NCBI GenBank assembly: GCA_030695565.1 | Contig: JAUYRZ010000118.1 | Location: 1 to 45,628, forward strand | From: Archangium sp. | GTDB taxonomy: Bacteria > Myxococcota > Myxococcia > Myxococcales > Myxococcaceae | Direction: 5' to 3' | Length of the DNA: 45,628 nucleotides | Shown here: piece by piece, positions 118 to 24,017 of the stretch | Layout: each line of letters starts with the position of its first letter | How positions within the stretch are numbered: the first letter of the stretch is position 1 | Notes under the pieces: generated by a model | The model's input: the letters and a program-made list of their open reading frames with translations, nothing else | Database searches by the model: none | Told to the model about the DNA's origin: nothing | Position numbers and translations under genes: made by a program

Positions 118-1218
118 TCAGAAGCGAATGCGAACGCCCGCGCCGATGCGCGAGTCACCGCGAGAGTCGTGGCTGGCCGACAGCGCGAAGTCGACGTCTT
201 TGTTCACCTTCCACGCGGCCTCGGCGTTGGCGGTGGTGTGGTCGGTCTGGAAGTTGTGATTCACGCCGGCCGACAAGGTGAGGTTGTCGTTGGGGCGGTA
301 GACGACGTTGCCGCCGACCGTCTCCATGCCCTGGCGGTTGGCCGTGGCGTACGCGGAGAGGTTCAGGTTCGGGCGGTTGAGGTCGTACTGCACGCGCGCG
401 TTGTCGAACCCGGTGGCCGAGTTGGCGGTGACCGAGCCGGTCAGCCGGCCCGAGTCGCCCAGGTCGACGTGGCCGGTGACGGTGCCGGTGGCCTTGAAGT
501 TCTTGAAGTGCGCGTCCCACTGGCCGCCGAGCTTCACCTCGAGCTTGTCGTCGAAGAACTTCGTCTTCACCTCGGGCTTGATGCCCAGGCTCGCGAGCTT
601 GGCGCTGCCGCCCGTCCACGCCACCACACCCGCCGCGGCCGCGAGACCACCGGCCAGCGAGTAGTACGCGGTGGGGGAAGCGGCCTTGAGGTCCTTGATC
701 AGATCCTTGGCGATGTCGCCGCCGATGCTGCCGAGATCGCCGAGCTTCGTGCTGGCGAGGTCGCGCGTGTTGATGCCCGCGCCCTCGAGCTTCGACTGGA
801 TGCCGGCCGCGAGCTCAGGGCTGAGCGCACCGATGGGGAGGTTCTTGAGGAAGTCGGTCGAGGCGTTCTGCAGCTCGGTCTGCTGAGCGGGCGAGAGCGA
901 GTCGCCTTCACGCACCGGCGTGCGGCCGCGCGCCATGCTCATCGCGTCGTGACCCAGCGTGGTCTCGATCTTCGCGGTGTACGTGCTCAACGCCGTCTCG
1001 AGCTGCGCGCGTACGGGGTTGGGCATCGAGGCGCGAACGTCGGCCTCGCTGGAGACGTGTTTGGGGAGCGAGAGGTCGAGCGGGCGCTGCCCGTTGTTGC
1101 CGGCAGCCCATCCAGGCGTCTGCGGCGGCGGCGTCGGGCCGACGGTGGTCGCAGGCTGGTTGCTGGTGGGGCTGACGACGCGCGGCGCTGGTTTACTTCC
1201 AATCCCGTTCACAGGCAT
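118..1218 (-). CDS. Outer-membrane beta-barrel-like protein without signal peptide
   Basis: A 366-residue protein I cannot assign to a named family. Residues 1-50 are Pro/Thr-rich and look disordered, beginning MPVNGIGSKPAPRV. Residues 60-180 look helical. Residues 185-205 form a small hydrophobic Ala/Gly segment. From about 215 to the end the sequence alternates polar and hydrophobic residues in short strands separated by Gly/Asn/Asp turns, and it finishes in RIGAGVRIRF, the C-terminal Phe typical of outer-membrane barrels. There is no Sec signal peptide at the chosen ATG. That start lies inside a 170-bp sequence repeated near 13.1 kb, where only the first residues of a sister protein survive. 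A barrel fold is inferred from pattern only; an adhesin or secreted-effector-like protein is possible. Confidence 0.6.
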   Translation of the reverse strand: MPVNGIGSKPAPRVVSPTSNQPATTVGPTPPPQTPGWAAGNNGQRPLDLSLPKHVSSEADVRASMPNPVRAQLETALSTYTAKIETTLGHDAMSMARGRTPVREGDSLSPAQQTELQNASTDFLKNLPIGALSPELAAGIQSKLEGAGINTRDLASTKLGDLGSIGGDIAKDLIKDLKAASPTAYYSLAGGLAAAAGVVAWTGGSAKLASLGIKPEVKTKFFDDKLEVKLGGQWDAHFKNFKATGTVTGHVDLGDSGRLTGSVTANSATGFDNARVQYDLNRPNLNLSAYATANRQGMETVGGNVVYRPNDNLTLSAGVNHNFQTDHTTANAEAAWKVNKDVDFALSASHDSRGDSRIGAGVRIRF

Positions 1219-2892: not shown

Positions 2893-3147
2893 CGGAAGAG
2901 GCGCGCTCCCCGGCCTCGAGGCACACGCGATCGATCAGCACCAAGAGGGCCGCGGCGGTCTGGGCGAAGGTGGCGCTGGGTGAGAGCAGCGCCGATGACA
3001 GCGAGGAGCCCATGGCCACCGTCACCACCAGGTCGAAGGCATTGACGTGCGTTTGCCGCTCACGCGCAGGAACAGAATCAACAAGGGGTAGCAGGCCGCG
3101 CCCATCAACAACACCCGCAGCACTTTGTTCCAGTCTTCGAACCACAT
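2893..3147 (-). pseudogene. Frameshifted, truncated DUF421 (YetF-like) membrane protein
   Basis: Two pieces of one protein sit in different frames. The first, from ATG 3147, reads MWFEDWNKVLRV and continues through a transmembrane segment to FLRVSGKRT at about 3046. The second resumes at about 3043 as NAFDLVVTVAMGSSLSSALL. DUF421 proteins carry an SGKRT-xxx-MNAFD junction here, so about ten bases are missing and the frame is broken. The C-terminal cytoplasmic domain is also absent; recognisable sequence ends near ALLVLI. The assignment rests on the GKRT/NAFD signature. The surrounding bases to 3238 hold nothing else I can support. Confidence 0.65.
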
Positions 3148-3238
3148 CTCCAGGGCCTCGAAGTACCACCGCCGGGATGGGAAGGGCTCCCTCTGACCCC
3201 ACTCTCAACAGCTCAGCGCTGTCACCGCCCGTCGGTGG

Positions 3239-3655
3239 TCACACACGTTGAGCTCGTGCTCGCGGCTCGCGACGTCGCCGCTTCACGACGACCGCAGCCA
3301 GCGCAACGAGCGCGACCGGAGCCGTCGAGCAACCGCCGGGCGGATTCGACGAGCCAGTCCCCGCATCGGTCGGCATCGAGGCCCCGGCATCGGGTCGAAC
3401 ACCACCGTCACTCGCAACGCACACGTTGAAGTTGCAGACGAAGGTGCCGCAAGTGCCCGAGCCGCACTGCGAGTCTGAGGCGCAGTAGCCCATCTGCGCG
3501 GGCCGACACTGACCTGAGGCGCAGAGCTCTCCGCACGCACACGCGCTGACCCCGCACGCGCAAGGGGGTGAGGTGCAGAGGTCGTACGAGGGAAGGCCGG
3601 CTTCGGCGAACGCGCTCGTTCCCAACAGACTCAACGTCAGGAGCAGTGATCGCAT
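3239..3655 (-). CDS. Small Cys-rich exported protein with MYXO-CTERM-like tail
   Basis: A 138-residue protein of unknown function. Residues 1-17 (MRSLLLTLSLLGTSAFA) are a Sec signal peptide. A compact Cys-rich segment follows (CTSPPCACGVSACACGELC, then CASDSQCGSGTCG), then an Asp/Gly/Thr-rich linker. The end is GGCSTAPVALVALAAVVVK plus an Arg run, resembling the MYXO-CTERM sorting signal used for cell-surface proteins in myxobacteria. The start was chosen at the Met that gives a clean signal peptide; longer in-frame starts read as noise. The tail after the Arg cluster is longer than usual for MYXO-CTERM. Confidence 0.72.
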   Translation of the reverse strand: MRSLLLTLSLLGTSAFAEAGLPSYDLCTSPPCACGVSACACGELCASGQCRPAQMGYCASDSQCGSGTCGTFVCNFNVCVASDGGVRPDAGASMPTDAGTGSSNPPGGCSTAPVALVALAAVVVKRRRREPRARAQRV

Positions 3656-3774
3656 GGTGAGACTTTGACACCGCGCTCCTGACGGGTGGGACATTCGCGG
3701 CGTCATGGCTTTCGTTTCGCAGCCGCGATGCCGGCGTCCTGATCGTCGCGGCTGACGCGGATACGTACGGCGTC

Positions 3775-4347
3775 TCAGGGCGAGGGAGGCGACACCAGCT
3801 CGAGCTGCACCTCGTTCTTGCGCAGGAACCACGGAGTCCACGGCGGGTCGTACCGGGCCCAGGTCGGCTCACCGTCGCCGCTGTTGAGGCCTTCTCGCTT
3901 CAAGCCTTCTTGGAGCTTGGTGAGGTGTTCCTGGAAGTTCGCCTCGGACCAGGTGCCGGAGTAACGCATCACCGCCACGACCCGCTCGGGGACGATGCGC
4001 AAGGTGACGCGTGGGTCCTGCGGCTTCGGAAGGGTTTCCATCGTCCACTTTGCGGGCATCGAGAACTGCACCTTCCACACCGCGCCGCTCTGCGTCTGCG
4101 TCACCGGTGAGGTCATCTCGATTTTCTGCGACTGGACCTTCTGGGTCACCGGGGCCGTCATGTCGATCTTCGCCGACGAGGTGTTGGCGCCGAAGATGTA
4201 GCCGGCGAGCACCCCGAAGGCCGCGTTGCCTGCATCACCCCGCGTCCCGTCGACCTCGGTCTCCGCCACCACGTACGAGCCGTACCGGCGGACTTCGAAG
4301 CCGTCATACGTCTTCAGCACTTCGTATTTGGGGCTTTCGATGGCCAT
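3775..4347 (-). CDS. SOUL-family haem-binding-like protein
   Basis: The 190-residue protein begins with the SOUL/HBP pattern: YEVLKTYDGFEVRRYGSYVVAET, then IFGAN and the paired motif KIDMTAPVTQ / KIEMTSPVTQ. It continues through FSMPAKWT with the LPKP region and RYSGTW. The family binds tetrapyrroles in animals and plants; the role in bacteria is uncertain. No signal peptide is evident, so it is probably cytoplasmic. It is divergent from the Cys-rich protein at 4541, with about 190 bp between the two starts. Confidence 0.9.
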   Translation of the reverse strand: MAIESPKYEVLKTYDGFEVRRYGSYVVAETEVDGTRGDAGNAAFGVLAGYIFGANTSSAKIDMTAPVTQKVQSQKIEMTSPVTQTQSGAVWKVQFSMPAKWTMETLPKPQDPRVTLRIVPERVVAVMRYSGTWSEANFQEHLTKLQEGLKREGLNSGDGEPTWARYDPPWTPWFLRKNEVQLELVSPPSP

Positions 4348-4540
4348 GGAGGTCGAGCTCGAGAGGATGACGAACAGCGCTGCGAAGGGGCCCCGCTTGG
4401 TCAGTGCTAACCGTGGTCACTCTCGAATGGTCCACAATCGCCAGGAAGCTCTCGCGCGAGAGCTCAACCGCGCGCGTGTGAAAGCTCGGCCTCTGAACAG
4501 CTCACGCAGGCCGATGAGGGTGCGTGGTAAGCGCTCGGCC

Positions 4541-5485
4541 ATGCGAGTGATGGTGGTGATGGGCGTGCTGGGGTGGTGTGGGTGCCACGTCCCGCTCGAG
4601 TCGTTCTGCGATGAGAACGCACGCGCACGGTGTGCAGCGCTCCAGCGGTGTGGCGTCTCGAGCGCGACCATCGATTGTTCACGACGGCAGTGGATTGGTG
4701 ACTGCCTGGAGAATGATCGAACGGGACTTGAGACAGGCCTCCTGCGCTACGACCCTCGAGCGGCGGCCGACTGCATCGCCGACCTCAGGGCCGCACCCTG
4801 CGCCGACTTCGTCGCGACACCTCCCGCGTGCCAGTCCGTGGTGACTGGTTCAAGAGCAGCGGGGCAATCCTGTGGTGGCGTCCAGGGCAGCAGCGGGGGC
4901 TGTGAGGCCGGCTTCTTCTGCAGTGTTTCCTCGGCGTTTGGGTGTGGGCAGTGTGAGCCGTACCCCGCTCGTCCTCAGCCGAGCGAAGTGGGGGAGGCGT
5001 GCAGCATCAGTGGCGGCCTTCAACCACCTTGCGTTGAGGGACTCGCGTGCGTGGCCGGCTTCTGCGTGGCCCGGGTGCCAGCGGGGGCTCAGTGCACCTT
5101 CAACGAGTGCGCCGCCGGACTCTTTTGCGCCCTCTCGAGCCGCTGCGCGCGCTTGCTCGAACGAGACGAAGCGTGCGACGAAAACGCGCGGTGCAAGCGC
5201 GGGCTGCTCTGTGGAGCCGGCCGCTGCGTTGCCATCGCGCACCTGGGCGAGGCCTGCCCGAACGCAGACCAGTGCGTCACGGGGCTGTGCGTCGACGGAC
5301 TGTGTCTCGAGCGCGGCCAGCGGGGAGAGGCGTGCCACGAAAAGAGACCCTGCGAGTCCCTCCCGTGCGTCGGAGGAATCTGTGACCCGGGGCCCCAGCC
5401 AGGCGAGCCTTGCCGCGACCTCTCCTGCGCGCCGGGTGGCGAGTGCAAGAATGGGCTCTGCCAGGCTGTCGTCGACTGTCGTTGA
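4541..5485 (+). CDS. Cys-rich exported protein, probable lipoprotein
   Basis: A 314-residue protein with a hydrophobic leader (MRVMVVMGVLGWCGCH) in which either Cys could be lipidated, though the -1 residues are not textbook. The rest contains more than thirty Cys in repeated units of the form GEAC...CxxGLxC..GxCV, like Dickkopf/EGF-style disulfide modules seen in myxobacterial surface proteins. An in-frame ATG at 4514 would add nine residues; neither start has a clear ribosome binding site. Function is unknown. No downstream gene is coupled, because the next 970 bases are gene fragments. Confidence 0.75.
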   Translation: MRVMVVMGVLGWCGCHVPLESFCDENARARCAALQRCGVSSATIDCSRRQWIGDCLENDRTGLETGLLRYDPRAAADCIADLRAAPCADFVATPPACQSVVTGSRAAGQSCGGVQGSSGGCEAGFFCSVSSAFGCGQCEPYPARPQPSEVGEACSISGGLQPPCVEGLACVAGFCVARVPAGAQCTFNECAAGLFCALSSRCARLLERDEACDENARCKRGLLCGAGRCVAIAHLGEACPNADQCVTGLCVDGLCLERGQRGEACHEKRPCESLPCVGGICDPGPQPGEPCRDLSCAPGGECKNGLCQAVVDCR

Positions 5486-5505
5486 GCCAGCTGCGCTCGC
5501 GCGCA

Positions 5506-5589
5506 TGCTCGGTCTCGCTCGCCGTGTACTTCGAGCAGGACCTCGACACGAAGACGGTCTGGCGAATGACCGTCACCGATGGGCGCTGA
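5506..5589 (+). pseudogene. Possible C-terminal gene fragment
   Basis: A short open stretch reads CSVSLAVYFEQDLDTKTVW, then RMTVTDGR and TGA. It looks like genuine coding sequence but has no start and no upstream continuation, because the preceding gene stops at 5485 in another frame. I recognise no family. It is listed because it opens the run of gene fragments to 6452. Confidence 0.25.
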
Positions 5590-5710
5590 GGTGACGCGGC
5601 GACTCCAGCATCTCTCGTGCCCGACATCACAGCGGTGAGTCTGCGGGGTTTGCACGCGCGGGCAGGGAACGACCGGTGACGGCTCGAGGAGGGCCTGCCA
5701 TGTTCGTCGC

Positions 5711-5884
5711 GTGAAGGACCGTGACCTCAAGCCCCGCAAGGCGCCCCAGCAGGAGCGCTCCCGTGAAACCATCGACGCCGTCTTTGAGGCGATGCTGCAG
5801 GTGCTCGAGCGGCAAGACGCGAACGATCCGTCGATGCAGGCCATCGCCGACCGGGCGGGCGTCAGCGTCGGCTCGGTCTACCAG
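5711..5884 (+). pseudogene. TetR-family regulator, N-terminal DNA-binding part only
   Basis: From GTG 5711 the frame gives KAPQQERSRETIDAVFEAML and QAIADRAGVSVGSVYQ, the helix-turn-helix of TetR-type repressors. The family continues with Y-F-x-S/N-K after this point. Here the sequence changes abruptly after VYQ at about 5884 into DNA that codes on the other strand. The ligand-binding domain is gone, so the gene cannot make a normal dimeric repressor. The reading frame runs on by chance to 6151. Confidence 0.75.
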
Positions 5885-6079
5885 TCGCGCGCCCGAGCGG
5901 AGGTTCTCGTAGATGTTCGCCTCCAGGTCGCGCAGCAGCTTCTGGTTCGGGTCTTCCGTGGGGATGATGTCGACGTTCGCGCTGTTGCTCGCGCCCGCGG
6001 GGAACGCGCCGAGCGAGCGCCCGGTCACCAGATCGAAGGCGAACACGTCGGCCGCCCAGGTGCCCGGCACGAACCGCGG
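5885..6079 (-). pseudogene. Reverse-oriented internal fragment of an unknown secreted-type protein
   Basis: On the minus strand this block reads RPRFVPGTWAADVFAFDLVT, GRSLGAFPAGASNSANVDI and EDPNQKLLRDLEANIYENL. This looks like a real protein interior, resembling strands and linkers of propeller-type or lipoprotein C-termini. There is no start or stop of its own. It is inserted exactly between the TetR remnant and the receiver-domain remnant, both on the opposite strand. Family unknown. Confidence 0.5.
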
Positions 6080-6080
6080 G

Positions 6081-6452
6081 CGGGTGTTGATCATCGACGA
6101 CGTCGAGAACGTGGGCCTCTCGCTGCAGCGGCTGCTCACCAAGGAGCATGACGCCGAGTACACGACCCGGTCCCGCCAGGCGCTGGAGGCCACGCGGCGC
6201 GGCGAGCGGTGGGACGTGGTGCTCTGCGACCTGATGATGCCCGAGCTCAACGGCATGGAGTTCGTCGCGGAGGTCGAGCGGATCGCCCCCGCGTTGATGC
6301 CACGGATCGTGATCATGACCGGCGGGGCGTTCACCCCCGGGGCGAGGGAGTTCCTTGCCCGCTGGCCGCACCACACGCTGGAGAAGCCGTGCGATCCCGA
6401 GCTGCTGTCCCGGGTGATCGCCCAGGTGCTGGAGCTCGCCCCCGAGCCGTGA
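6081..6452 (+). pseudogene. Receiver domain fragment, C-terminal part of a hybrid histidine kinase
   Basis: The frame from 6081 to the TGA at 6452 gives RVLIIDDVENVGLSLQRLL, the phosphoacceptor segment VVLCDLMMPELNG, IVIMTGGAFTPGAREFL and LEKPCDPELLSRVI. These are the DD, D, T and K positions of a complete CheY-like receiver. The GAFTP-AREFL and LEKP wording is typical of receivers at the C-terminus of myxobacterial hybrid kinases. There is no start codon with a ribosome binding site (a GTG at 6084 is the only candidate) and the sensor and kinase parts are missing. It might be expressed as a stand-alone receiver, but a cut gene end is more likely. Confidence 0.7.
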
Positions 6453-6613
6453 AGGCCTCAGGTGCGGGTCTCGGTCGATTCGGTCGGTCCTCGACGGCGT
6501 TCGAACCAGGGAACCCTCCGGAGATACCCGGTGTATCCGTGCTCACTGGAACCGCGTACTGGATTTCCTGAGGCGGGGCCGCCGTGCTTGAATTTGGTCC
6601 TGTCCCTAACCGC

Positions 6614-8131
6614 ATGTCTGAATCGCCTTCACCGACGCCCCCGACGCCCTTGCTGACTGAATCGGCCCCTGAGCCGACGCTCGTTCGCAGGCGCGATCAC
6701 ATCACCCGGCCGCCGTTTCTGGGCGATGGGCCTGTCGAGCCGTCGGGCAGTCTGGTGGGTCTGAAGCTCGGTGAGTACGACGTCATCTCGCAGCTGGGTG
6801 CGGGGGGCATGGGCATCGTGTACCGGGGGCTCCAACCGCAGATCGGCAAGTCGGTGGCGATCAAGGTGCTCAAGCCGGAGATCGCCACGGGCACCGACAG
6901 CGTGCAGGCGCTGCTGGCCGAAGCGCGGGCGGTGAACTCGATTCACCACCCCGGCATCGTGGACATCTTCAGCTTCGGCTCGACGCCCGACGGCCGGCCC
7001 TACGTGGTGATGGAGCTGCTCGAGGGGCAGTCGCTCGACGAGGTGCTCCGCAGGGTCGGCCGCTTTCAGGCGCTGGAGGCGATAGAGCTGCTCGAGCAGA
7101 TGCTCAGCGCGCTCGACGCCGCGCACGCCGCGGGCGTGATTCACCGCGATCTCAAGCCTGCCAACATTCACCTCACCCAGCTCAACGACGGGAAGTGGCG
7201 GGTGAAGCTGCTCGACTTCGGTCTGGCCAAGCTCACCGCGCCGGGTGCTGCCAGCGCGGCGCAGACCAACGCGAACGTGGTGCGCGGTACGCCCGAGTAC
7301 ATGTCGCCCGAGCAGGCGCGCGCGCAGAGCGTCAGCTCGCGCACCGACCTCTACGCGATGGGGGTGGTGGCCTTCGAGCTGCTCACGGGGACGCTGCCGT
7401 TCAAGGCGGACAATCCAGTCGAGCTGTTGATGCAGCACATCAGCCAGCCGCCGCCAGCGCCCACGTCGCTCGAGGCAGACATTCCGGCCGAGTTCGAGAC
7501 GCTCATTCTGCAGTTGCTCGAGAAGGACCCCGAGGCGCGGCCCGCGTCGGCGGTCGGGGTTCGGCGCGAGCTGCTGAAGCTGAAGAAGCAGTTGATCGAA
7601 GGCGGTACGCAGATTCGCCGCCGTCCCGTCGCGATGGCCCCGGTCGAGGTGGTCTCGGAGCCGGTCGCCCCTGCCGCCGCTTCGAGCACGCCGAAGTTGA
7701 TCGCCGCGCTGGTGGTGGTCGTGCTGCTCCTCGTCGCAGCGCTGGGGGTGCTGCAGCGGACCCAGGTCATCGAGCCGCCAGCCCCCGCGCCCGTCGTCAT
7801 CGAGCCGCTGGTGGAGACGGTGGAGAAGCCGGTGGAGAAGGTCGTTCAGCAGGTAGAAGAGCCCGTGGAGCCGCCGCCGGCCCTCGAGACGCCCGTCGAG
7901 CCCGTGGTGGTGAAGCCGCGCGATCCTCCGAAGCCGAAGGCGAAGCTGCACACCGCACAAGACGTCAAGAAGCTCCTGTCGACCCTCGCAGCGGAAGCCA
8001 GCAAGCGGCCGCCGGGTGAAGCCCGCTCGAGAAAGCGCGCGCTCGACGACTTCCGCGACGAGCTCAACGCGGGCGGAAAGCCGGAAGAGCTGTGGCAACA
8101 GCTCAAAGCGTACGAGCGCAACTCTCAATGA
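6614..8131 (+). CDS. Membrane Ser/Thr protein kinase (PknB/Hanks type), first gene of a five-gene operon
   Basis: A 505-residue kinase. Residues 54-320 carry all Hanks motifs: glycine loop GAGGMG (62-67), Lys84 in VAIK, Glu103, catalytic HRDLKPAN (177-184), DFG (201-203), and GTPEYMSPEQ with SPE at 231-233. Residues 362-380 form a single transmembrane helix. About 125 periplasmic residues follow, with Pro/Glu/Val-rich repeats and a basic helical end. A cytoplasmic kinase would thus be linked to an envelope-facing tail. The start is ATG 6614 (MSESPSP); an in-frame GTG at 6584 is possible and neither has a strong ribosome binding site. Its TGA overlaps the next ATG (ATGA), so the downstream genes are probably co-translated. 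Confidence 0.93.
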   Translation: MSESPSPTPPTPLLTESAPEPTLVRRRDHITRPPFLGDGPVEPSGSLVGLKLGEYDVISQLGAGGMGIVYRGLQPQIGKSVAIKVLKPEIATGTDSVQALLAEARAVNSIHHPGIVDIFSFGSTPDGRPYVVMELLEGQSLDEVLRRVGRFQALEAIELLEQMLSALDAAHAAGVIHRDLKPANIHLTQLNDGKWRVKLLDFGLAKLTAPGAASAAQTNANVVRGTPEYMSPEQARAQSVSSRTDLYAMGVVAFELLTGTLPFKADNPVELLMQHISQPPPAPTSLEADIPAEFETLILQLLEKDPEARPASAVGVRRELLKLKKQLIEGGTQIRRRPVAMAPVEVVSEPVAPAAASSTPKLIAALVVVVLLLVAALGVLQRTQVIEPPAPAPVVIEPLVETVEKPVEKVVQQVEEPVEPPPALETPVEPVVVKPRDPPKPKAKLHTAQDVKKLLSTLAAEASKRPPGEARSRKRALDDFRDELNAGGKPEELWQQLKAYERNSQ

Positions 8132-14432: not shown

Positions 14433-15650
14433 GTGATTGCACGCCTGTCTCGACTCGCCGTTGCCACGCTCGTGCTGAGCAACTGCGCGCAGCCCTCCGT
14501 TGTCGATGCGGGCCCGCGAACGACCATCGCCACGATCGCCGGCAGCAATGGGGCGGCCGGCGCGTTCGCAGACGGGCCCGCTGCGGAGGCGCGTTTCGAT
14601 CTCCCCGAAGGGCTCGCGCTCGACACGGCAAACCAACACCTGTTCATCGCCGACTCCGTCAACCACGTCATCAGGCGCCTCGAGCTGGCGACCGGCGAAG
14701 TCACCACCGTCGCTGGCACGCCCTCGCAGTCGGGCTTCGCTGACTCCGACGCCGACGGTGGCACGCGGCTGCATCTGCCCCGGAACCTGGTCTTCGCACC
14801 CGGCGGGCGCAGCCTCTACTTCACGGACACGGGCAACTCGGTCATTCGGCGCCTCGATCTCGAGACAGGGCGCGTGTCGACGAAGTACGGCGTCGCGCGA
14901 TCACCCGGCACCGATGATGGCCGCGGCCTCAACGCGCGCTTCGGCAGGTCTGGCCTCTTCGGAGCACTGCCCTGGGGCGGCGGGCTGGTCATCGACGCGC
15001 AGAACGACGCCGGGCCCCGCATGTACGTGGCCGACTCGGCCAACCAGACCATTCGCTCCATCGACCTCGTCACGGACGACGTCACCACCATCGCCGGAAG
15101 GCCCGGAGTGGAAGGCGCCGCCGATGGCCCCGCCCTCAGCGCGGCCTTCAACAAGCCCTCGGGGCTCGGCCTGAGCGGAAGAAAGCTCTTCATCACCGAG
15201 GCCAACAACCTCACCATCCGGCGCCTCGACCTCGACACGAAGCAGGTGATCACGGTCGCAGGCAAGGCGCCGGAGAACCCCAAACACTTCTGCGAGAACA
15301 TCAGCCCGGTCTTGCCGCCCGAGTGTGGCTCGACCGATTCCCCTGATGGGCTGGAAGCGCGGTTTCGCTTTCCCTTCGGCGTCGAGCCCGATGATCGCGG
15401 CGGTTTCTTCGTCGTCGATTCGCACAACAACCTCATTCGACGTTTCGACCCTGCCTCGTCAGCGGTCACCACGGTCGCGGGCACCCAGCTGACGGTGCTG
15501 CACGATCTCATTCACCCCAGCGAAGACACGGGGGCGGGGCAGGAGGGCACCTTCTCACACCCCTCGCACGCGGTCTTTCTGCCCCCTCGCACGCTGTACG
15601 TGTCGGATCGTTCGGCGAACTGCATCAGGCGCGTCGAGCTCGCGGACTGA
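14433..15650 (+). CDS. NHL-repeat beta-propeller lipoprotein
   Basis: A 405-residue protein. The GTG at 14433 gives a lipoprotein leader (IARLSRLAVATLVLSNC) with LSNC as lipobox; an earlier in-frame GTG would spoil it. Six NHL-type blades can be counted by their repeated ends: IADSVNHVIRRLEL, FTDTGNSVIRRLDL, VADSANQTIRSIDL, ITEANNLTIRRLDL, VDSHNNLIRRFD and VSDRSANCIRRVEL. Most are followed by VTTVAG-type turns. A six-bladed propeller facing the periplasm or cell surface is expected, for binding rather than catalysis. Its last 96 bases overlap, convergently, the end of the amidoligase-like gene. Confidence 0.88.
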   Translation: MIARLSRLAVATLVLSNCAQPSVVDAGPRTTIATIAGSNGAAGAFADGPAAEARFDLPEGLALDTANQHLFIADSVNHVIRRLELATGEVTTVAGTPSQSGFADSDADGGTRLHLPRNLVFAPGGRSLYFTDTGNSVIRRLDLETGRVSTKYGVARSPGTDDGRGLNARFGRSGLFGALPWGGGLVIDAQNDAGPRMYVADSANQTIRSIDLVTDDVTTIAGRPGVEGAADGPALSAAFNKPSGLGLSGRKLFITEANNLTIRRLDLDTKQVITVAGKAPENPKHFCENISPVLPPECGSTDSPDGLEARFRFPFGVEPDDRGGFFVVDSHNNLIRRFDPASSAVTTVAGTQLTVLHDLIHPSEDTGAGQEGTFSHPSHAVFLPPRTLYVSDRSANCIRRVELAD

Positions 15651-16565
15651 CTCGAGGAACGCGCTCGCGTCAGAGAGCGCCTGGAGCGTCGCTTCGGGAT
15701 CGAGTGAACCCGGCAGACACCGCACCTCGATCGTCGGCTGTTTGGGAAAACGCTCCACCAGGCCGAGCAGGTTGAGATCGACGGCGCGGTGCAGACCGGC
15801 GAGCAGCAAGCCGGCAGCCAGCGTCTCGAAAGGCAGCTCGTCGGTGGCTTCTGTCGCCACCCTGACCACGTCGGGGGGAAACGGGCCCAGCTTGCGGCAC
15901 CGCGGGTTCGGCTTGAGTCGACTGAGGTAAACCGCGCGCTCCTTCGACCAGGCCAGCACGAGCCTGCGCAACGACGCCGTCGAACGAAACGGAGCCGCAT
16001 CGAAGTGCGCGTGCACCGCTGCTTCTGCGGGCACGGTGAAGCCGAGCGAAGTGGCGAGCTTCATCACCCGGCGCAGGGTGGGCGCGAGCTCCTTCTGCCC
16101 GAGGGGGCGCAGCACCACCTCACACACCCGCGCGCGTTCAGCGGAGACCTGATGCCAACGCACCAGCGGCTGCCCCCAGGGATCGACGAAGCCGGCTTCG
16201 TCTTCCGTCGCGGCGAAGGTCTTCTGAAGCGGGCGAAAGTGACCCGGGCAGCTCCGTTCGATCCACGCGGCGAGGCGCACGTCATCGGTGCGCGCGGCCC
16301 GCATGAACTCAGGAGTTCGAGCGAGATCGTCGACGATGGTGGGATCATCGACCACCGAGGCGAACCACTTCCCGCGCACCAGCACCCGCGCGGCCGGGGT
16401 GAGGTGACAGTCGGGCCGGCCATCGGGCAGCACGCCTTGTCCGTGGTACTTGAACGAAAGACGAAGCGCGCCCCCCGCTTGTTTCGCGAGAGCGCGCGCC
16501 AGGTCGAATCGAGTTTTCCCCGCCGGGGCCAACAGCTCGAGCTCGAGCCCGACGGGAAACCGCAT
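15555..16565 (-). CDS. Amidoligase_2-type enzyme (glutamine-synthetase-like fold)
   Basis: A 336-residue putative ATP-dependent amide ligase. It opens RFPVGLELELLAPAGKTR, the G-x-E-x-E metal/ATP-binding start of the Amidoligase_2 family. It carries AVHAHFDA (His185, His187), corresponding to the family's HVH motif, and closes with TIEVRCLPGSLDPEATL, corresponding to the conserved IEFR-x-x-PGTLD strand. Family members are predicted to form amide or isopeptide bonds on peptides or small metabolites. ATG 16565 overlaps the stop of the upstream repeat protein as TGATG, so the two are translationally coupled. An alternative GTG lies one codon earlier. Substrate is unknown; the coupled repeat protein is the obvious candidate by inference. 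Confidence 0.8.
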   Translation of the reverse strand: MRFPVGLELELLAPAGKTRFDLARALAKQAGGALRLSFKYHGQGVLPDGRPDCHLTPAARVLVRGKWFASVVDDPTIVDDLARTPEFMRAARTDDVRLAAWIERSCPGHFRPLQKTFAATEDEAGFVDPWGQPLVRWHQVSAERARVCEVVLRPLGQKELAPTLRRVMKLATSLGFTVPAEAAVHAHFDAAPFRSTASLRRLVLAWSKERAVYLSRLKPNPRCRKLGPFPPDVVRVATEATDELPFETLAAGLLLAGLHRAVDLNLLGLVERFPKQPTIEVRCLPGSLDPEATLQALSDASAFLESVRELDAPDAVRRTIRHVQRARGQKDRVRGV

Positions 16566-17281
16566 CACGGAATTTCGTGACGGTCGCGAGCGGCGGTGAT
16601 GCCCTTCTCGGTCATCATCGAGGTGTAGTCGTTGAGCACCTTGAGGCCCATGTACTCCTTCACTTCCTGCGTGGAGGCGCCCTTGAGGAAGTCGAACTTC
16701 TTCTTCGCCTGCTCGACGTCGCCGGCCGAGTACCCCGAGCGCTTGAACGCCGCGAGCATGTCGTGGCTGTCGAACTCCGAGCGGGTGACGCCCACCTCGG
16801 TGAGGATGTCTTCCGTCTTGTTGACGACCTTCAGGCCGATGTACTCCTTGGCCTCAGCGAGGTTCTTCAGGAAGGGCAGCTTCTTGAGCGCCTGCTTAGC
16901 GTCGGCCTCGGAGTACGGGCTGCGCTGGAACGCCACGGTGCAGTCGTGGTTGTCGTACCGCGCGCGGCTGATGCCCTTCTGCTCCAGCGGGCCTTCGTTA
17001 CGGGTGATCACCGCGCGGCCGATGAGCTCCTTGGCGGCGTCGATGCTGGGGAGATTGAAGGCCTTCTTCGCGGCCTTGGCGTCGGCGTTCGTGTAGGGCG
17101 AGTGCCAGAAGGCGGTCCGCGCGGTCTTGCTGTCGATCGACGCGCCACCGATGCCACCGGGCGCGGCAGGCTTGACCCAACCGCTGCTCGACGTCGCAGG
17201 CTGAGGCTTCGCGGGCATGGTGGCGGCTCGGGGGGCGGGCTGCTGCGTGACTGCGGGCGTGTTGCGTTTGACAGTGGGCAT
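16565..17281 (-). CDS. Protein with three tandem ~60-residue repeats, coupled to the amidoligase
   Basis: A 238-residue protein of no recognised family. Residues 1-50 are Pro/Ala/Thr-rich and likely disordered. Three repeats then follow, each built as AF-x-x-SxY-x-x-xDAKxAxKxF, a Leu-rich helix, EAKEYIGLKV, a short helix, and GxxRxxxDxHD. Examples are TAFWHSPYTNADAKAAKKAF, VAFQRSPYSEADAKQALKKL and AAFKRSGYSAGDVEQAKKKF. A strong AGGAG lies six bases before ATG 17281. No signal peptide. Each repeat has conserved Lys, Glu and Asp/His residues that could serve as acceptor sites. A structural, adaptor or substrate role for the amidoligase is inferred from coupling. Confidence 0.78.
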   Translation of the reverse strand: MPTVKRNTPAVTQQPAPRAATMPAKPQPATSSSGWVKPAAPGGIGGASIDSKTARTAFWHSPYTNADAKAAKKAFNLPSIDAAKELIGRAVITRNEGPLEQKGISRARYDNHDCTVAFQRSPYSEADAKQALKKLPFLKNLAEAKEYIGLKVVNKTEDILTEVGVTRSEFDSHDMLAAFKRSGYSAGDVEQAKKKFDFLKGASTQEVKEYMGLKVLNDYTSMMTEKGITAARDRHEIP

Positions 17282-17362: not shown

Positions 17363-18673
17363 ATGATCACCCTCGACTCTCAGACGATGAGAACCCTGCA
17401 AGAACGTTTGACGTCAGCGCAGAGCAGCTTCGCGTCTCGTTTCCCGGGGGAGTCGAGCGCGCGGCAGCCCGTGCACGTGCTCTATGGCGGTGCCCACCTG
17501 TTCAAGGCGGAGACCGCGGGCAAGCTCGGCGAGCTCGCCCGCCAGGCGCTCGCCACGTACGCGCCCGATTCTCTCTCACTGGGCGACGCGCTCGATCTCG
17601 AGCTGGAGCTGTCGGCCCGCGTGTACCCGCGCGTGCTGGCCAAGCTCGAGCGTGAGCCGGTGGAGGATCTGCGCATCGACTTCGAAGACGGCTACGGCCA
17701 TCGCAGCGACGAAGAAGAAGATGGTCACGCCATCGAAGCGGCGCGTCAGGTGGCGCGCGGTCTTTCTGAAAACCGGCTGCCTGCGTTTTACGGAATCCGC
17801 ATCAAGCCGCTGTCGGCCGAGCTCGGTGCCCGCGCGATTCGCACGCTCGATCTGTTCCTGACCGAGCTGAAGCGGCCGGTGTTGATCACCCTGCCCAAGG
17901 TGGTCTCGGTGGCGCAGGTCGAGCTGTTCGTCTCGGTGCTCACAGAGCTGGAAAAGAAGCTCGGCTTCCCGCCGCGTTCCCTGCGCGTCGAGTTCATGGT
18001 CGAAGCAGCACAGGGGCTCATCGATGGAGAGGGGCGTCACGTGCTGCCGCTCCTGCACGCAGCGGCAGACGGCCGACTGCAGGCGGCGCACTTCGGGGCC
18101 TACGACTACACCGCTTCGCTCGACATCACGGCCTCGCACCAGGCGATGCGGCACCCCTCGTGTGATCTCGCGCGCTCGGAGATGAAGTGGGCCTTCGCGG
18201 GCACCGGCGTGTTCTTGAGCGATGGCGCGACGACCCGCATGCCCATCGCTCCCCATCGCGGCGCGAAGCTCACCGAAGGTCAGCTCGCTGAGAACCGCCG
18301 CGTGGTGCACGCCGCGTGGCTCACCTCGGCCGAAGACATCCGCCATTCCCTGGCCAGCGGCTTCTACCAGGGGTGGGATCTGCACCCGGCGCAGCTGGTG
18401 GCCCGGTACGGCACCGTCTTCGCGTTCTTCCTGGAGAGCCTGGCGCCGGCCACCGAGCGGCTGGCTCACTTCGTCAAGCGGCTGGGGCAGGCCACGCTCT
18501 CGGGCACGATGTTCGACGACGCCGCCACGGGGCAGGGGCTGCTCAACTTCTTCCTGCGCGGGGTCGCGTGCGGTGCGCTCACGGAAGCAGAGGTGGCCGC
18601 CACCGGGCTCACCCCCGCCGAGCTGCAGAGTCGATCGTTTTCGACCATCGCTCGAAACCGGCGCGGGGGTTGA
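17363..18673 (+). CDS. HpcH/HpaI aldolase / citrate-lyase-beta-like protein
   Basis: A 436-residue cytoplasmic enzyme of the phosphoenolpyruvate/pyruvate TIM-barrel superfamily. Visible landmarks are DLRIDFEDGYGHRSDEEED (acidic metal site region), FYGIRIKPL, LITLPKVVSVAQVELFV, LRVEFMVEAAQGLID, and FGAYDYTASLDITASHQAM, which recalls the DYTADLG of citrate lyase beta. It is longer than CitE (about 290) and fits the large uncharacterised branch annotated in databases as DUF6986. GAAGGGA sits before ATG 17363. It is divergent from the repeat-protein operon and 13 bases upstream of the GH31 gene. Proximity to allantoin genes suggests a role with glyoxylate-type products, which is inference. Confidence 0.8.
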   Translation: MITLDSQTMRTLQERLTSAQSSFASRFPGESSARQPVHVLYGGAHLFKAETAGKLGELARQALATYAPDSLSLGDALDLELELSARVYPRVLAKLEREPVEDLRIDFEDGYGHRSDEEEDGHAIEAARQVARGLSENRLPAFYGIRIKPLSAELGARAIRTLDLFLTELKRPVLITLPKVVSVAQVELFVSVLTELEKKLGFPPRSLRVEFMVEAAQGLIDGEGRHVLPLLHAAADGRLQAAHFGAYDYTASLDITASHQAMRHPSCDLARSEMKWAFAGTGVFLSDGATTRMPIAPHRGAKLTEGQLAENRRVVHAAWLTSAEDIRHSLASGFYQGWDLHPAQLVARYGTVFAFFLESLAPATERLAHFVKRLGQATLSGTMFDDAATGQGLLNFFLRGVACGALTEAEVAATGLTPAELQSRSFSTIARNRRGG

Positions 18674-20511: not shown

Positions 20512-20844
20512 TCAGCTGCCCCGGTAGGTCGAGTATCCCCACGGGTTGAGCAACAACGGCACGTGGTAGTGCGCCGCGCCGTCGACGATCTCGAAGACGA
20601 CTTCGACGTACGGGTAGAAGGCCTTCGTTCCGATGGCCGCGAAGTACTGCTTCGTGTCGAAGCGGATTCGCCAGAGGCCGGGCTCGACCGGGCCCGGCGG
20701 AGTGAGCGTCTTCAGGCGACCATCGTCATCGGTCTGCCCCGAGCCGATCAGCTTCCAGTCAGTGCCTGACTGTTTTTCCAGTTGGATGGGTACGGCTCGC
20801 GCTGGCTTGCCGAGTGTCGTGTCGAGAATGTGCGTGGTGATCAT
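20512..20844 (-). CDS. uraH: 5-hydroxyisourate hydrolase (transthyretin-like)
   Basis: Hydrolyses 5-hydroxyisourate, the product of urate oxidase, to OHCU. The 110-residue length is typical. It has the N-terminal HILDTTLGKPA motif, RIRFDTKQYF, YPYVEVVFEI, and the diagnostic C-terminus HYHVPLLLNPWGYSTYRGS. Active-site His and Arg plus the terminal YRGS are all present. It is the last gene of the leftward purine-catabolic group, 64 bases after the fused allantoicase/decarboxylase gene, with a repeat hairpin in between. It may therefore be read from the same transcript at a different level. Confidence 0.96.
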   Translation of the reverse strand: MITTHILDTTLGKPARAVPIQLEKQSGTDWKLIGSGQTDDDGRLKTLTPPGPVEPGLWRIRFDTKQYFAAIGTKAFYPYVEVVFEIVDGAAHYHVPLLLNPWGYSTYRGS

Positions 20845-20859
20845 CGTGGGCCCCTCACC

Positions 20860-20899
20860 CGGCCTGCGGCCGACCTCTCCCCGCGGTCGCAGGGAGAGG
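20860..20899. repeat. Double hairpin of the CCTCTCCC/GGGAGAGG family
   Basis: CGGCC-TGC-GGCCG (20860-20872) is followed by CCTCTCCC (20874-20881) pairing with GGGAGAGG (20892-20899). Leading bases CCCCTCACC and trailing GTGAAAAAA give the look of a dispersed REP-like element. It fills the gap between the decarboxylase stop and the hydroxyisourate hydrolase start. Confidence 0.55.
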
Positions 20900-20908
20900 T
20901 GAAAAAAG

Positions 20909-22399
20909 TCATGACGCGTGCTCTTCGAGCCACTTGTTGAGACGGAGTTGCGTGATTTTGGCCTGCTCTTCGGCCGCGGTGCGGATCTCGGTCGCGCGAT
21001 CGTTCGGCAACCGCGCCTCCAACAGCGCCAGCATCTCGTCAGCCGACTTCCCCGTCGCGCAGACGATGAAGATGAACCCGAACTTCGCGAAGTACGCGTC
21101 GTTCTGCGTCTTCAACTTCTCCAGCGTGGCGTTGGCTGCCGCGGCAGCGCCTGACTGCTCCTGCGACGCCCACTTCGCTGCGCTCTTGTCACCGATGCGC
21201 GGATGGGCCGCGAACGCTTCCAGGAAATCGGCCTCCCCCGACCTCCACCATTCGCGCTCCGCCACGCGCATCAACGCCGCCACGTTCTCGAACGGCCGCG
21301 CCCACGCCATGCCGGTGGCCCACTTCTTCGAGCCGCACGCCTTCAAGAACTCGGTCGCCGCCGCGTCGGTGGAAAGGCCATTGAGCCGCGTCAGCCCCGC
21401 ATGCGGCGTCTCGGTCAGCTCGCCCCACACGCGCAAGCGCGCGATGCCGCCATCAGGAAACACCGAGAGCCGCACGTGCGTGACCGGCCCCACCCGGCGC
21501 AGTTGCTCATCGAACACATGCCGCGTGTGCGGCTGCAGCGGGCTCTCCACCACGGTGCGCCAACCCGTCAGCGCATCGGGCTTCGCGTCACGCGGGCCCG
21601 TGCAGGCCTCGATGAGACAGCGGCCCGGCGCGTTGCCCTTGAAGTGCGTGGTGTCGACCTCGATGCGCTGCACCGTACCGGCCGCGGCGAGGCGAACGAG
21701 TGACCAGTCGTGACCGGGGCCCCGGCGGCGTTTGGTCTCCCAGCCATCGCCCATGTTCACCGAGCGGTCGGGCTTGATGAGGTTGTGCCGCGAGCCGAAG
21801 AACATGTCGCTGCAGGCGAGCACGTAGGCGCCGTTCTCCAGGGCCGCGAGATCCACCAGGCCTCCGAACACGCGCAGCTTCGTCCAATCGGGGACCACTT
21901 CGCCGTGCACGCGCAGCCGGGCCACGCCGCCGTCAGGGAAGATGTTCAAACGCACGTGCGTGAAGCGCCGCCCGTCGTTCACCGCGAAGTAGTTCTTCGA
22001 GTCGCCCTGCAGCTTCGCTTTGGGAACCAGCTCGACCCACTCGGCGTTCTGCGACTCCTTGAGGTCGAGCGGCCCTTTCAGAGACGCCGCTTCGATCGAG
22101 CACGACTCGGGGAAGTTGCCGCGGAACCACTTCGTGTCGACCACGAAGCCCTTGAGCACGCCGGGCAGCCCCAGGCGCACCACGCACCAGTCGTAGCCAG
22201 CCTCGCGGCGACGGCGCGATTCCCAGCCGTCCATCCACTTGCCCTTGTGGGTGTACTCGTGGTCCGTCCACACGGCTTCGTGCGCTTTGAGCAGGTTCTC
22301 CTTCTCGGCGAAGAAGTCGTCGTTCGTGCTCAGCGCCGCGCCACCGACACGTTCGGCAGCGAGGTCCGGGTAGTCGACGAAATCAGGAGGCTGGCTCAC
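20909..22399 (-). CDS. Fused allantoicase / OHCU decarboxylase
   Basis: A 496-residue bifunctional purine-catabolic enzyme. Residues 1-335 hold two allantoicase repeats, each with GDGWE/MDGWESRRRR, DW-x-x-VRL, VDTxxFxGN and FPDGG-ARLRV(H/W)GE. Allantoicase splits allantoate into ureidoglycolate and urea. Residues 338-496 form an OHCU decarboxylase with AHPRIGDKSA (catalytic His399), the FIVCATGKSADEML strand, and the final Leu-rich helices; it makes S-allantoin from OHCU. The two steps flank allantoinase in the pathway and are normally separate proteins. The start is GTG 22399, which overlaps the allantoinase stop as GTGA. No frameshift at the join. Confidence 0.95.
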   Translation of the reverse strand: MSQPPDFVDYPDLAAERVGGAALSTNDDFFAEKENLLKAHEAVWTDHEYTHKGKWMDGWESRRRREAGYDWCVVRLGLPGVLKGFVVDTKWFRGNFPESCSIEAASLKGPLDLKESQNAEWVELVPKAKLQGDSKNYFAVNDGRRFTHVRLNIFPDGGVARLRVHGEVVPDWTKLRVFGGLVDLAALENGAYVLACSDMFFGSRHNLIKPDRSVNMGDGWETKRRRGPGHDWSLVRLAAAGTVQRIEVDTTHFKGNAPGRCLIEACTGPRDAKPDALTGWRTVVESPLQPHTRHVFDEQLRRVGPVTHVRLSVFPDGGIARLRVWGELTETPHAGLTRLNGLSTDAAATEFLKACGSKKWATGMAWARPFENVAALMRVAEREWWRSGEADFLEAFAAHPRIGDKSAAKWASQEQSGAAAAANATLEKLKTQNDAYFAKFGFIFIVCATGKSADEMLALLEARLPNDRATEIRTAAEEQAKITQLRLNKWLEEHAS

Positions 22400-23733
22400 A
22401 GGAATTGTCCCTTCAGTTCGCGGGCGTGTTCGCCCTGGTGGAAGACGCGCTGGCCGCGCACATACGTCGAGGTGACCACGCCCGTCAGCCCCGCATCGGC
22501 GTACGGCGTCAGTTTGTGTTTGTGCTGAAGGCGCGCGAGGTCGACCTGGAACTTCGCTTCAGGCTCGAAGATGACCAGGTCTGCGTCGAAGCCGGGCGCG
22601 ATGCGGCCCTTCTTGTGTTCCAGCCCCGCGAGGCGAGCCGGCGCTTCGCACATCCACTTGACCACCTGCTGCAGGGTGAAGCCGCGCGCGCTGGCGCCGC
22701 TCCAGGTGACGGAGAGCCCCAGCTGCAGGCCGCTGATGCCGCCCCACGCGGCCATGAAGTCGCCCAGCTCCTGTTTTTTCAGCGCGGGAGTACAGGGTGA
22801 GTGATCCGAGGCGACCAGCTCGAGCACCCCTTCACCCAGCGCAGCCCAGAGCAGCTCCCGGTTGCTCCGCTCGCGAATCGGCGGCGCGCATTTGAACGCG
22901 GTGGCGCCGTCGCGAATGTCCTCGGCTGCGAAGTGGAGGTAGTGCGGGCAGGTCTCGGCGGTGAACGGCAGCCCTTCAGCGCGAGCGGCGCGGATGAGGG
23001 GCAGGGCCGTCGCAGCCGAGTGATGCACGATGTGCGTGCGCGCGCGCGTCTCGCGGCAGAGGCGCGAGACCAACTTGATCGCGTCTTCTTCGGCCGTGGG
23101 CGGGCGCGACGCGAGGTAGGTCATGTACGAGCGGGGATCCATTCCCTTGACCTGCTCGGCGACGGCGTCGATCGGCGCTTCGACCTCTGCGTGCACCAGG
23201 AGCGGGCGGCTCAAGCGGCGCAGCTCCATCATCGCGGGCTGCAGGTGTTCTTCCTGCACGCCGGGAAACTCTTCGACGCCCGAGTAACACATGAAGGCTT
23301 TGAACCCGCGCGCGCCTTCACGCACCAGGCCCTCGAGTTCACGGGTATTGCCGGGCACCACGCCGCCCCAGAAGCCCACGTCGATGAGGCATTGGCCGGC
23401 CGCTTCCTGGCGCTTCTTGCGCAGCGCTTCGGCCGTGGTGGTGGGCGGGATGGCGTTGAGCGGCATGTCGACCAGCGTGGTGACGCCGCCGCTCGCCGCG
23501 GCCCGGGTGGCGGTGAGGAAACCTTCCCACTCGGTGCGGCCGGGCTCGTTGACGTGCACGTGGGTGTCGACCACGCCGGGCATCAACACTGCTTCTCCCG
23601 CGTCGATGCACTCGTAGCCTGCGGGGATCGCTTCGTAGTCGGCGATCGCGTCGATGATTTCACCGCGGACATGCACCGTCGCCGGGCGGATGCCCTCGGG
23701 GGTGACCACGCGTTTGCTGCGGAAGACCTTCAT
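22396..23733 (-). CDS. allB: Allantoinase
   Basis: Opens the hydantoin ring of allantoin to allantoate; a cyclic amidohydrolase with a binuclear metal centre. The 445-residue protein shows DTHVHVNEPG (HxH ligands), GFKAFMCYSG (the Lys that is carbamylated), LVHAEVE and IVHHSA (His ligands), and VASDHSPC (Asp). All catalytic positions are therefore present. ATG 23733 gives MKVFRSKRVVTPEG, the usual N-terminus; a longer frame upstream reads as noise. It is the first gene of the leftward operon. A urate oxidase, xanthine dehydrogenase or transporter is not in this window. Confidence 0.96.
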   Translation of the reverse strand: MKVFRSKRVVTPEGIRPATVHVRGEIIDAIADYEAIPAGYECIDAGEAVLMPGVVDTHVHVNEPGRTEWEGFLTATRAAASGGVTTLVDMPLNAIPPTTTAEALRKKRQEAAGQCLIDVGFWGGVVPGNTRELEGLVREGARGFKAFMCYSGVEEFPGVQEEHLQPAMMELRRLSRPLLVHAEVEAPIDAVAEQVKGMDPRSYMTYLASRPPTAEEDAIKLVSRLCRETRARTHIVHHSAATALPLIRAARAEGLPFTAETCPHYLHFAAEDIRDGATAFKCAPPIRERSNRELLWAALGEGVLELVASDHSPCTPALKKQELGDFMAAWGGISGLQLGLSVTWSGASARGFTLQQVVKWMCEAPARLAGLEHKKGRIAPGFDADLVIFEPEAKFQVDLARLQHKHKLTPYADAGLTGVVTSTYVRGQRVFHQGEHARELKGQFL

Positions 23734-24017
23734 GCGACGGAATCTGCCACGGGGCAGGCGAGATACGGAGAAGACAACGGCCCTGGGGAGGATGGGTTCG
23801 AGGGTGAGGGGCCGTGCCCTGCCCAAATGGGCCCTCCGCGCGAGGGCTTGTGTGCGCTGCTGAACGCAGCTTCGGCCCGGTGCGACCTGCCCCGGGCCAG
23901 CGTGCGCTGAAATTATTCCCTCAGGCGAACTGGTCGTACTTCTCGTTGACGTCGAGCGCGCGCGGTGGTGTCTCCTCGCTCGTCGCCTTCATCCAACCGA
24001 AAGCAGGCCCTCACCGC

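Follow-up and report, generated by a model that had tools for sequence, protein, structure and literature searches.

A divergent Amidoligase_2 protein and a three-repeat partner are encoded as a two-gene cassette in myxobacteria

Amidoligases with the glutamine synthetase (GS) fold are widely annotated, and the substrate is known for few of them. Enzymes of the GS superfamily use ATP to turn a carboxylate into an acyl phosphate and then into an amide, and GS-fold amidoligases can act on small molecules too. GS-like amidoligases, among them Amidoligase_2 (PF12224), were reportedly predicted by Iyer et al. in Mol Biosyst in 2009. In the window (the whole stretch of 45,628 nucleotides that was analysed, contig C51 of genome G000), ORF calls give two overlapping genes on the minus strand, a repeat protein followed by a ligase of this kind. 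Here, we ask whether the repeat protein has a part in the reaction of the ligase, and which part that might be. The pair and the segments of the repeat protein are as follows:

16565 to 17281, minus strand: partner protein of 238 aa with three repeats, predicted to be helical (ORF call, AF2, self-alignment)
17123 to 17281, minus strand: P/A/T/S-rich N-terminal leader, residues 1-53, predicted disordered (AF2 pLDDT < 50 for residues 1-47), with a GW motif at 34-35
16940 to 17122, minus strand: repeat 1, residues 54-114, with AFWHSPYTNADA invariant in 10 of 10 orthologues and K84 at 17030-17032 (alignments)
16757 to 16939, minus strand: repeat 2, residues 115-175, with K145 at 16847-16849 (alignments)
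16568 to 16756, minus strand: repeat 3, residues 176-238, with K208 at 16658-16660 (alignments)
15555 to 16565, minus strand: divergent Amidoligase_2 of 336 aa, a putative GS-fold carboxylate-amine ligase (PF12224, AF2, VIA-align, hhalign)

At the junction of the two genes, CCG-TGATG-CGG, a single A both ends the stop codon (TGA) of the repeat gene and begins the ATG of the ligase gene, just as the first-pass annotation had read it. A stop/start overlap is found in G000, G003 and G005 (in the latter two, which are same-genus relatives, as GTGA), and short gaps separate the genes at the remaining adjacent loci. The final ~30 codons of the ligase gene run antisense to the 3' end of an NHL-repeat gene (14472-15650; overlap 15555-15650). 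Since they are not present in most orthologues in the alignment, where the ligase stops earlier, these codons probably represent a local extension. Purifying selection acts on both genes, with dN about one quarter of dS in same-genus species pairs, and the divergence of the two proteins is correlated (r = 0.955), as it would be for any co-inherited pair. We also observed, near a DUF6986 gene in the window, genes that resemble HIU hydrolase, allantoicase/OHCU decarboxylase and allantoinase (20512-23826, minus strand, and 17363-18673, plus strand); this is likely a purine (urate) breakdown cluster, which stands beside the pair in genus g1.

How firmly can the ligase be placed? The Pfam model PF12224 matches it with 33.8 bits (E = 4e-8, cut-off 22), whereas canonical Amidoligase_2 members of the same phylum score about 200 bits. 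Judging from its sequence, the protein is a true, though divergent, Amidoligase_2. The conserved motifs of the ligase are:

16536 to 16544, minus strand: ExE metal/ATP-site motif (E8 and E10 in GLELE), invariant in alignments A3 and A5
16119 to 16121, minus strand: E149 (in RVCEVV), which aligns with the E that canonical amidoligases conserve in EVVSP (alignments, hhalign)
16005 to 16013, minus strand: HxH motif, H185 and H187 (A3, A5, hhalign)
15720 to 15728, minus strand: ExR motif, E280 and R282 (A3, A5, hhalign)

None of the seven residues varies among nine orthologues and two remote copies from genome G014 (A3, A5). The motifs GLELE, VHAHFD and IEVRCLPGSLD, on which the enzyme had originally been recognised, are present with their key residues invariant in the nine orthologues, and the ATP- and metal-binding residues, whose loss had been named as grounds against the proposal, are retained when compared with the family (ExE, E, HxH, ExR). 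A comparison of the ligase with canonical amidoligases by hhalign (A5-A7) gave a probability of 97.6% over 165 columns that cover the E, HxH and ExR; the ExE corresponds there by motif only. In the AF2 model (pLDDT 86) the ligase is predicted to have the glutamine synthetase fold: the best VIA-align matches are glutamine synthetases (Z 11.7, 3.3-3.4 A, ~180 residues) and, among the 50 matches listed, every one is a glutamine synthetase or a homologue of it. Foldseek returned weak matches only. Taking the predicted fold, the invariant catalytic motifs and the hhalign placement together, we expect the ligase to be enzymatically active.

Next, we consider the repeat protein. The three repeats that had been noticed in the sequence, of ~62 aa by our count, are borne out by local alignment of the repeats with each other, with scores of 116, 73 and 129 that far exceed the maxima of 43, 51 and 44 from 1000 shuffles, and the disordered Pro/Ala leader likewise agrees with its composition and its low pLDDT. 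Each repeat is modelled by AF2 as four helices (pLDDT ~80), with the packing between repeats unsure (pTM 0.39); the repeats are thus predicted to be folded helical domains. There are three of them in 10 of 10 orthologues, and each is closer to its counterpart in other species than to its own sister repeats (identity 0.43-0.55 for the same repeat across genus groups, 0.21-0.44 between sister repeats). Alignment of the repeats across species had been proposed as a way to find conserved acceptor residues, and it points to one lysine per repeat. Across the 30 units of the ten orthologues, four residues never vary (F, K, G and G), and the lysine at unit column 35 (K84, K145 and K208) is the only invariant reactive side chain. 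The claim of invariant Lys, Glu and Asp-His positions holds for the lysine (30/30) and fails for the rest: the Glu of repeat 1 is kept in 10/10 orthologues, that of repeat 2 in 5/10 and that of repeat 3 in 0/10, and the Asp (25/30) and His (22/30) are missing from repeat 3 in half of the family. The least conserved stretch of the repeats is the end of repeat 3.

We found no match to the repeat domain in Pfam, NCBIfam, PHROGs, PADLOC or PDB sequences, so that the family is described in none of them. Structural searches with the repeat model (Foldseek against PDB and BFVD, and VIA-align) gave nothing usable, the best hit being a designed protein (Z 3.0), and plasmid and phage records and viral contigs held nothing relevant to repeats or ligase. 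A candidate distant match to the repeat profile on contig C131 of G000 was rejected as weak (E 0.02 to 1) in a region of WGR/PARP-like genes. In this region, at locus L129 (4195-7187, minus strand), two adjacent WGR/PARP-type-looking genes stand beside ExbB/ExbD-like genes.

The leader is a separate matter. P/T/A-rich N-terminal leaders of ~35-50 residues that end in G/A-W are common to unrelated proteins of these myxobacteria, where they precede repeats or DUF3298-like, C39-peptidase-like or barrel-like domains. Besides the repeat protein itself (16565-17281, minus strand), leader-bearing proteins are encoded in the window at 118-1218 (minus strand) and at the loci L132 (1498-2379), L133, L134, L137, L010 (4796-5623) and L088 (1547-2779). 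The shared leader is possibly a sorting or secretion tag. A search of G000 with a leader profile recovered only its own training members. We rejected the leader, as opposed to the repeats, as the main target of the ligase, because G155 has the leader but not the cassette, and because the leader is shortened in half of the repeat family.

Do the two genes belong together? Among 195 genomes of the phylum, a profile search found ten with the repeat family. The same ten, and G014, have the ligase subfamily at more than 200 bits, the next full matches in the 195 genomes being at ~31 bits. Whether the repeat family always neighbours an Amidoligase_2 gene can thus be answered: the ligase is on the same strand at all ten repeat loci and adjacent at nine, while in G002 it lies 2 kb away with two genes between and both kept. 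(In G004 a contig end splits the ligase.) A repeat protein that is widespread without an amidoligase, which would have spoken against the proposed link, was not seen in any of the 195 genomes. Fisher's test of the co-occurrence, which ignores relatedness, gives p = 6e-16 for genomes and p = 3e-5 for genera; the co-occurrence spans 3 to 4 genera that are not phylogenetically independent. In a wider genome collection, nine relatives of the repeat protein were found by a scan whose reach is limited to close relatives, and every named record with the pair is a metagenome assembly, all of them from one family-level group.

The pair is found in three unrelated contexts: with DUF6986/thioesterase in g1, at the lptB-rpoN locus in g5, and in another in g18. 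At the lptB-rpoN locus the g5 members G009, G156, G157 and G160 have the pair, and G155 and G159 have neither gene; neither is there in G000, G022 and G013. The two genes are gained or lost together, and from strict co-occurrence, adjacency, the three contexts and joint absence we conclude that the two-gene cassette is real. Near the ten pairs we found no conserved protease, exporter/transporter, GGCT, GATase or other biosynthetic gene.

More distant ligases are found in G014 and G192. G014 has two copies (40.6 and 55.7 bits against PF12224). The first overlaps tail to tail with the gene of a 410-residue protein, in which two N-terminal repeat-like units with 64-residue spacing (E ~1e-4 to 3e-4 among 189 to 407 genes, matched by the profile from repeat 1 only) precede a DUF3298/PdaC-like domain. 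By this match the two units probably belong to the repeat family; the arrangement is convergent, not operonic. Where homologues of the DUF3298-like domain occur in other genomes, they lack both the repeat units and a nearby ligase. The second copy (locus L089 on contig C150, 7109-8263, minus strand) lies tail to tail with the gene of a 1326-residue DUF4781/Fic protein (3106-7086, plus strand) that has no detectable repeats. In the distant genome G192, a still more divergent ligase (locus L172 on contig C63, 5802-7586, minus strand) lies 12 bp downstream of the gene of a 236-residue protein. This partner was rejected as a repeat relative, being unrelated by profile and having an N-terminal domain that recurs in proteins with no adjoining ligase. 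A repeated insert in the G192 ligase has matches at nine other places of the genome.

What we infer from the genes, their motifs and their joint inheritance, for catalysis, substrate, acceptor residue and biological role alike, is this. The repeat gene and the ligase gene would be translationally coupled; the ligase would use ATP to activate a carboxylate as an acyl phosphate, which would be joined to an amine to form an amide; and the three-repeat protein encoded upstream would be its cognate partner. The tight pairing argues that the partner belongs to the reaction, and joint inheritance suggests that the ligase modifies or works through it. Our first choice, held with slightly less than even confidence, is that the repeat protein is the substrate and receives a small carboxylate or amine group, with K84, K145 and K208, one in each repeat, as the first candidate acceptors. 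The first G014 copy, next to a protein with two probable repeat units that homologues of its DUF3298-like domain lack, speaks for this; the second, beside the DUF4781/Fic protein, counts against it, and the invariant lysine may be structural instead. A repeat protein that serves as scaffold, adaptor or regulator, binding the ligase or bringing it the real substrate while itself unmodified, would fit nearly as well, even if we rate it as somewhat unlikely. As for a subunit of a complex, the three-repeat architecture is fixed, the repeats have separate identities and are predicted to fold, the genes are translationally coupled and the two proteins diverge in a correlated manner, although any co-inherited pair would do so. 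On the other hand, the repeat gene comes first and its product may be in excess, and we know of no dedicated scaffold for a single enzyme of the Amidoligase_2 family.

It is less probable still that the product of the ligase is a small molecule, or that its target is another protein or a cell-surface polymer, with the repeat protein as carrier, binding protein or delivered effector. The leader does resemble those of other non-Sec proteins in these genomes, and canonical Amidoligase_2 genes stand beside gamma-glutamylcyclotransferase-like genes, which is consistent with small gamma-glutamyl-type products; but the neighbourhoods of the pair have no GGCT, GATase, transporter or other biosynthetic gene in common. 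The multi-core reading of the first-pass annotation, with the repeats as RiPP cores that are modified, cut and exported, is disfavoured and now very improbable. Repeats and a leader do adjoin a modifying enzyme, but the repeats number exactly three in 10/10 orthologues and are ~60-aa predicted folded domains with separate identities, rather than near-identical short cores that vary in number; half of the family has a shortened leader, and neither protease nor exporter is conserved nearby. What stands of that proposal is the enzyme class and the functional coupling (GS fold, motifs, strict co-occurrence, cassette-like gain and loss). A toxin-antitoxin or effector-immunity pair seems equally far-fetched: the distribution is patchy and cassette-like and one G014 ligase adjoins a Fic-domain protein, but neither window protein has a PADLOC match, both diverge at similar rates under purifying selection, and the repeat protein looks like a toxin in no library searched (Pfam, NCBIfam, PHROGs).

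Compared with known systems, the ligase shares with Amidoligase_2 the predicted fold, the ExE/E/HxH/ExR motifs and a Pfam score above the cut-off, and differs as a divergent subfamily. Canonical Amidoligase_2 copies at L090, L091, L092, L096 and L097 each have two gamma-glutamylcyclotransferase-like genes, named from sequence motifs, beside them; an Amidoligase_2 with such a gene is also seen in a phage (PMC10945688). Several canonical loci lie in phage-like or tail-like regions, and some of their genomes also hold the cassette (G003, G009). Unlike this amidoligase-GGCT operon, which we disfavour as a model because no cyclotransferase is conserved nearby, the pair has at its ten loci a repeat protein in place of neighbouring gamma-glutamylcyclotransferase or amidotransferase genes. 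Graspetide and microviridin RiPPs are made by ATP-grasp ligases acting on short cores. The likeness is an ATP-dependent amide-forming enzyme (here predicted) beside a repeat-containing product; here, however, we see a GS-fold ligase and long repeats in fixed number.

In actinobacteria, the GS-fold ligase PafA is encoded together with Pup, a small protein used as its substrate. The repeat protein matches nothing in Pfam, NCBIfam or PHROGs, and we detected no sequence relation of it to Pup; no Dop, Mpa or proteasome gene stands out among the called ORFs of the window. It is a doubtful idea that the cassette is an undescribed, dedicated protein-modification pair, which puts an amide-linked group on one lysine per repeat or conjugates the repeat protein to targets, and would be a functional analogue of PafA/Pup outside actinobacteria. 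While the enzyme superfamily is known, the partner domain is undescribed in the libraries searched, and, because the cassette is small and strictly co-inherited and offers one candidate acceptor in each repeat, the substrate question can be tested directly with two genes. What the cassette shares with PafA/Pup is the concept of a small protein encoded together with a GS-fold ligase, the substrate role being putative here; Pup is small and disordered, whereas the repeat protein is predicted to be a folded protein of three repeats.
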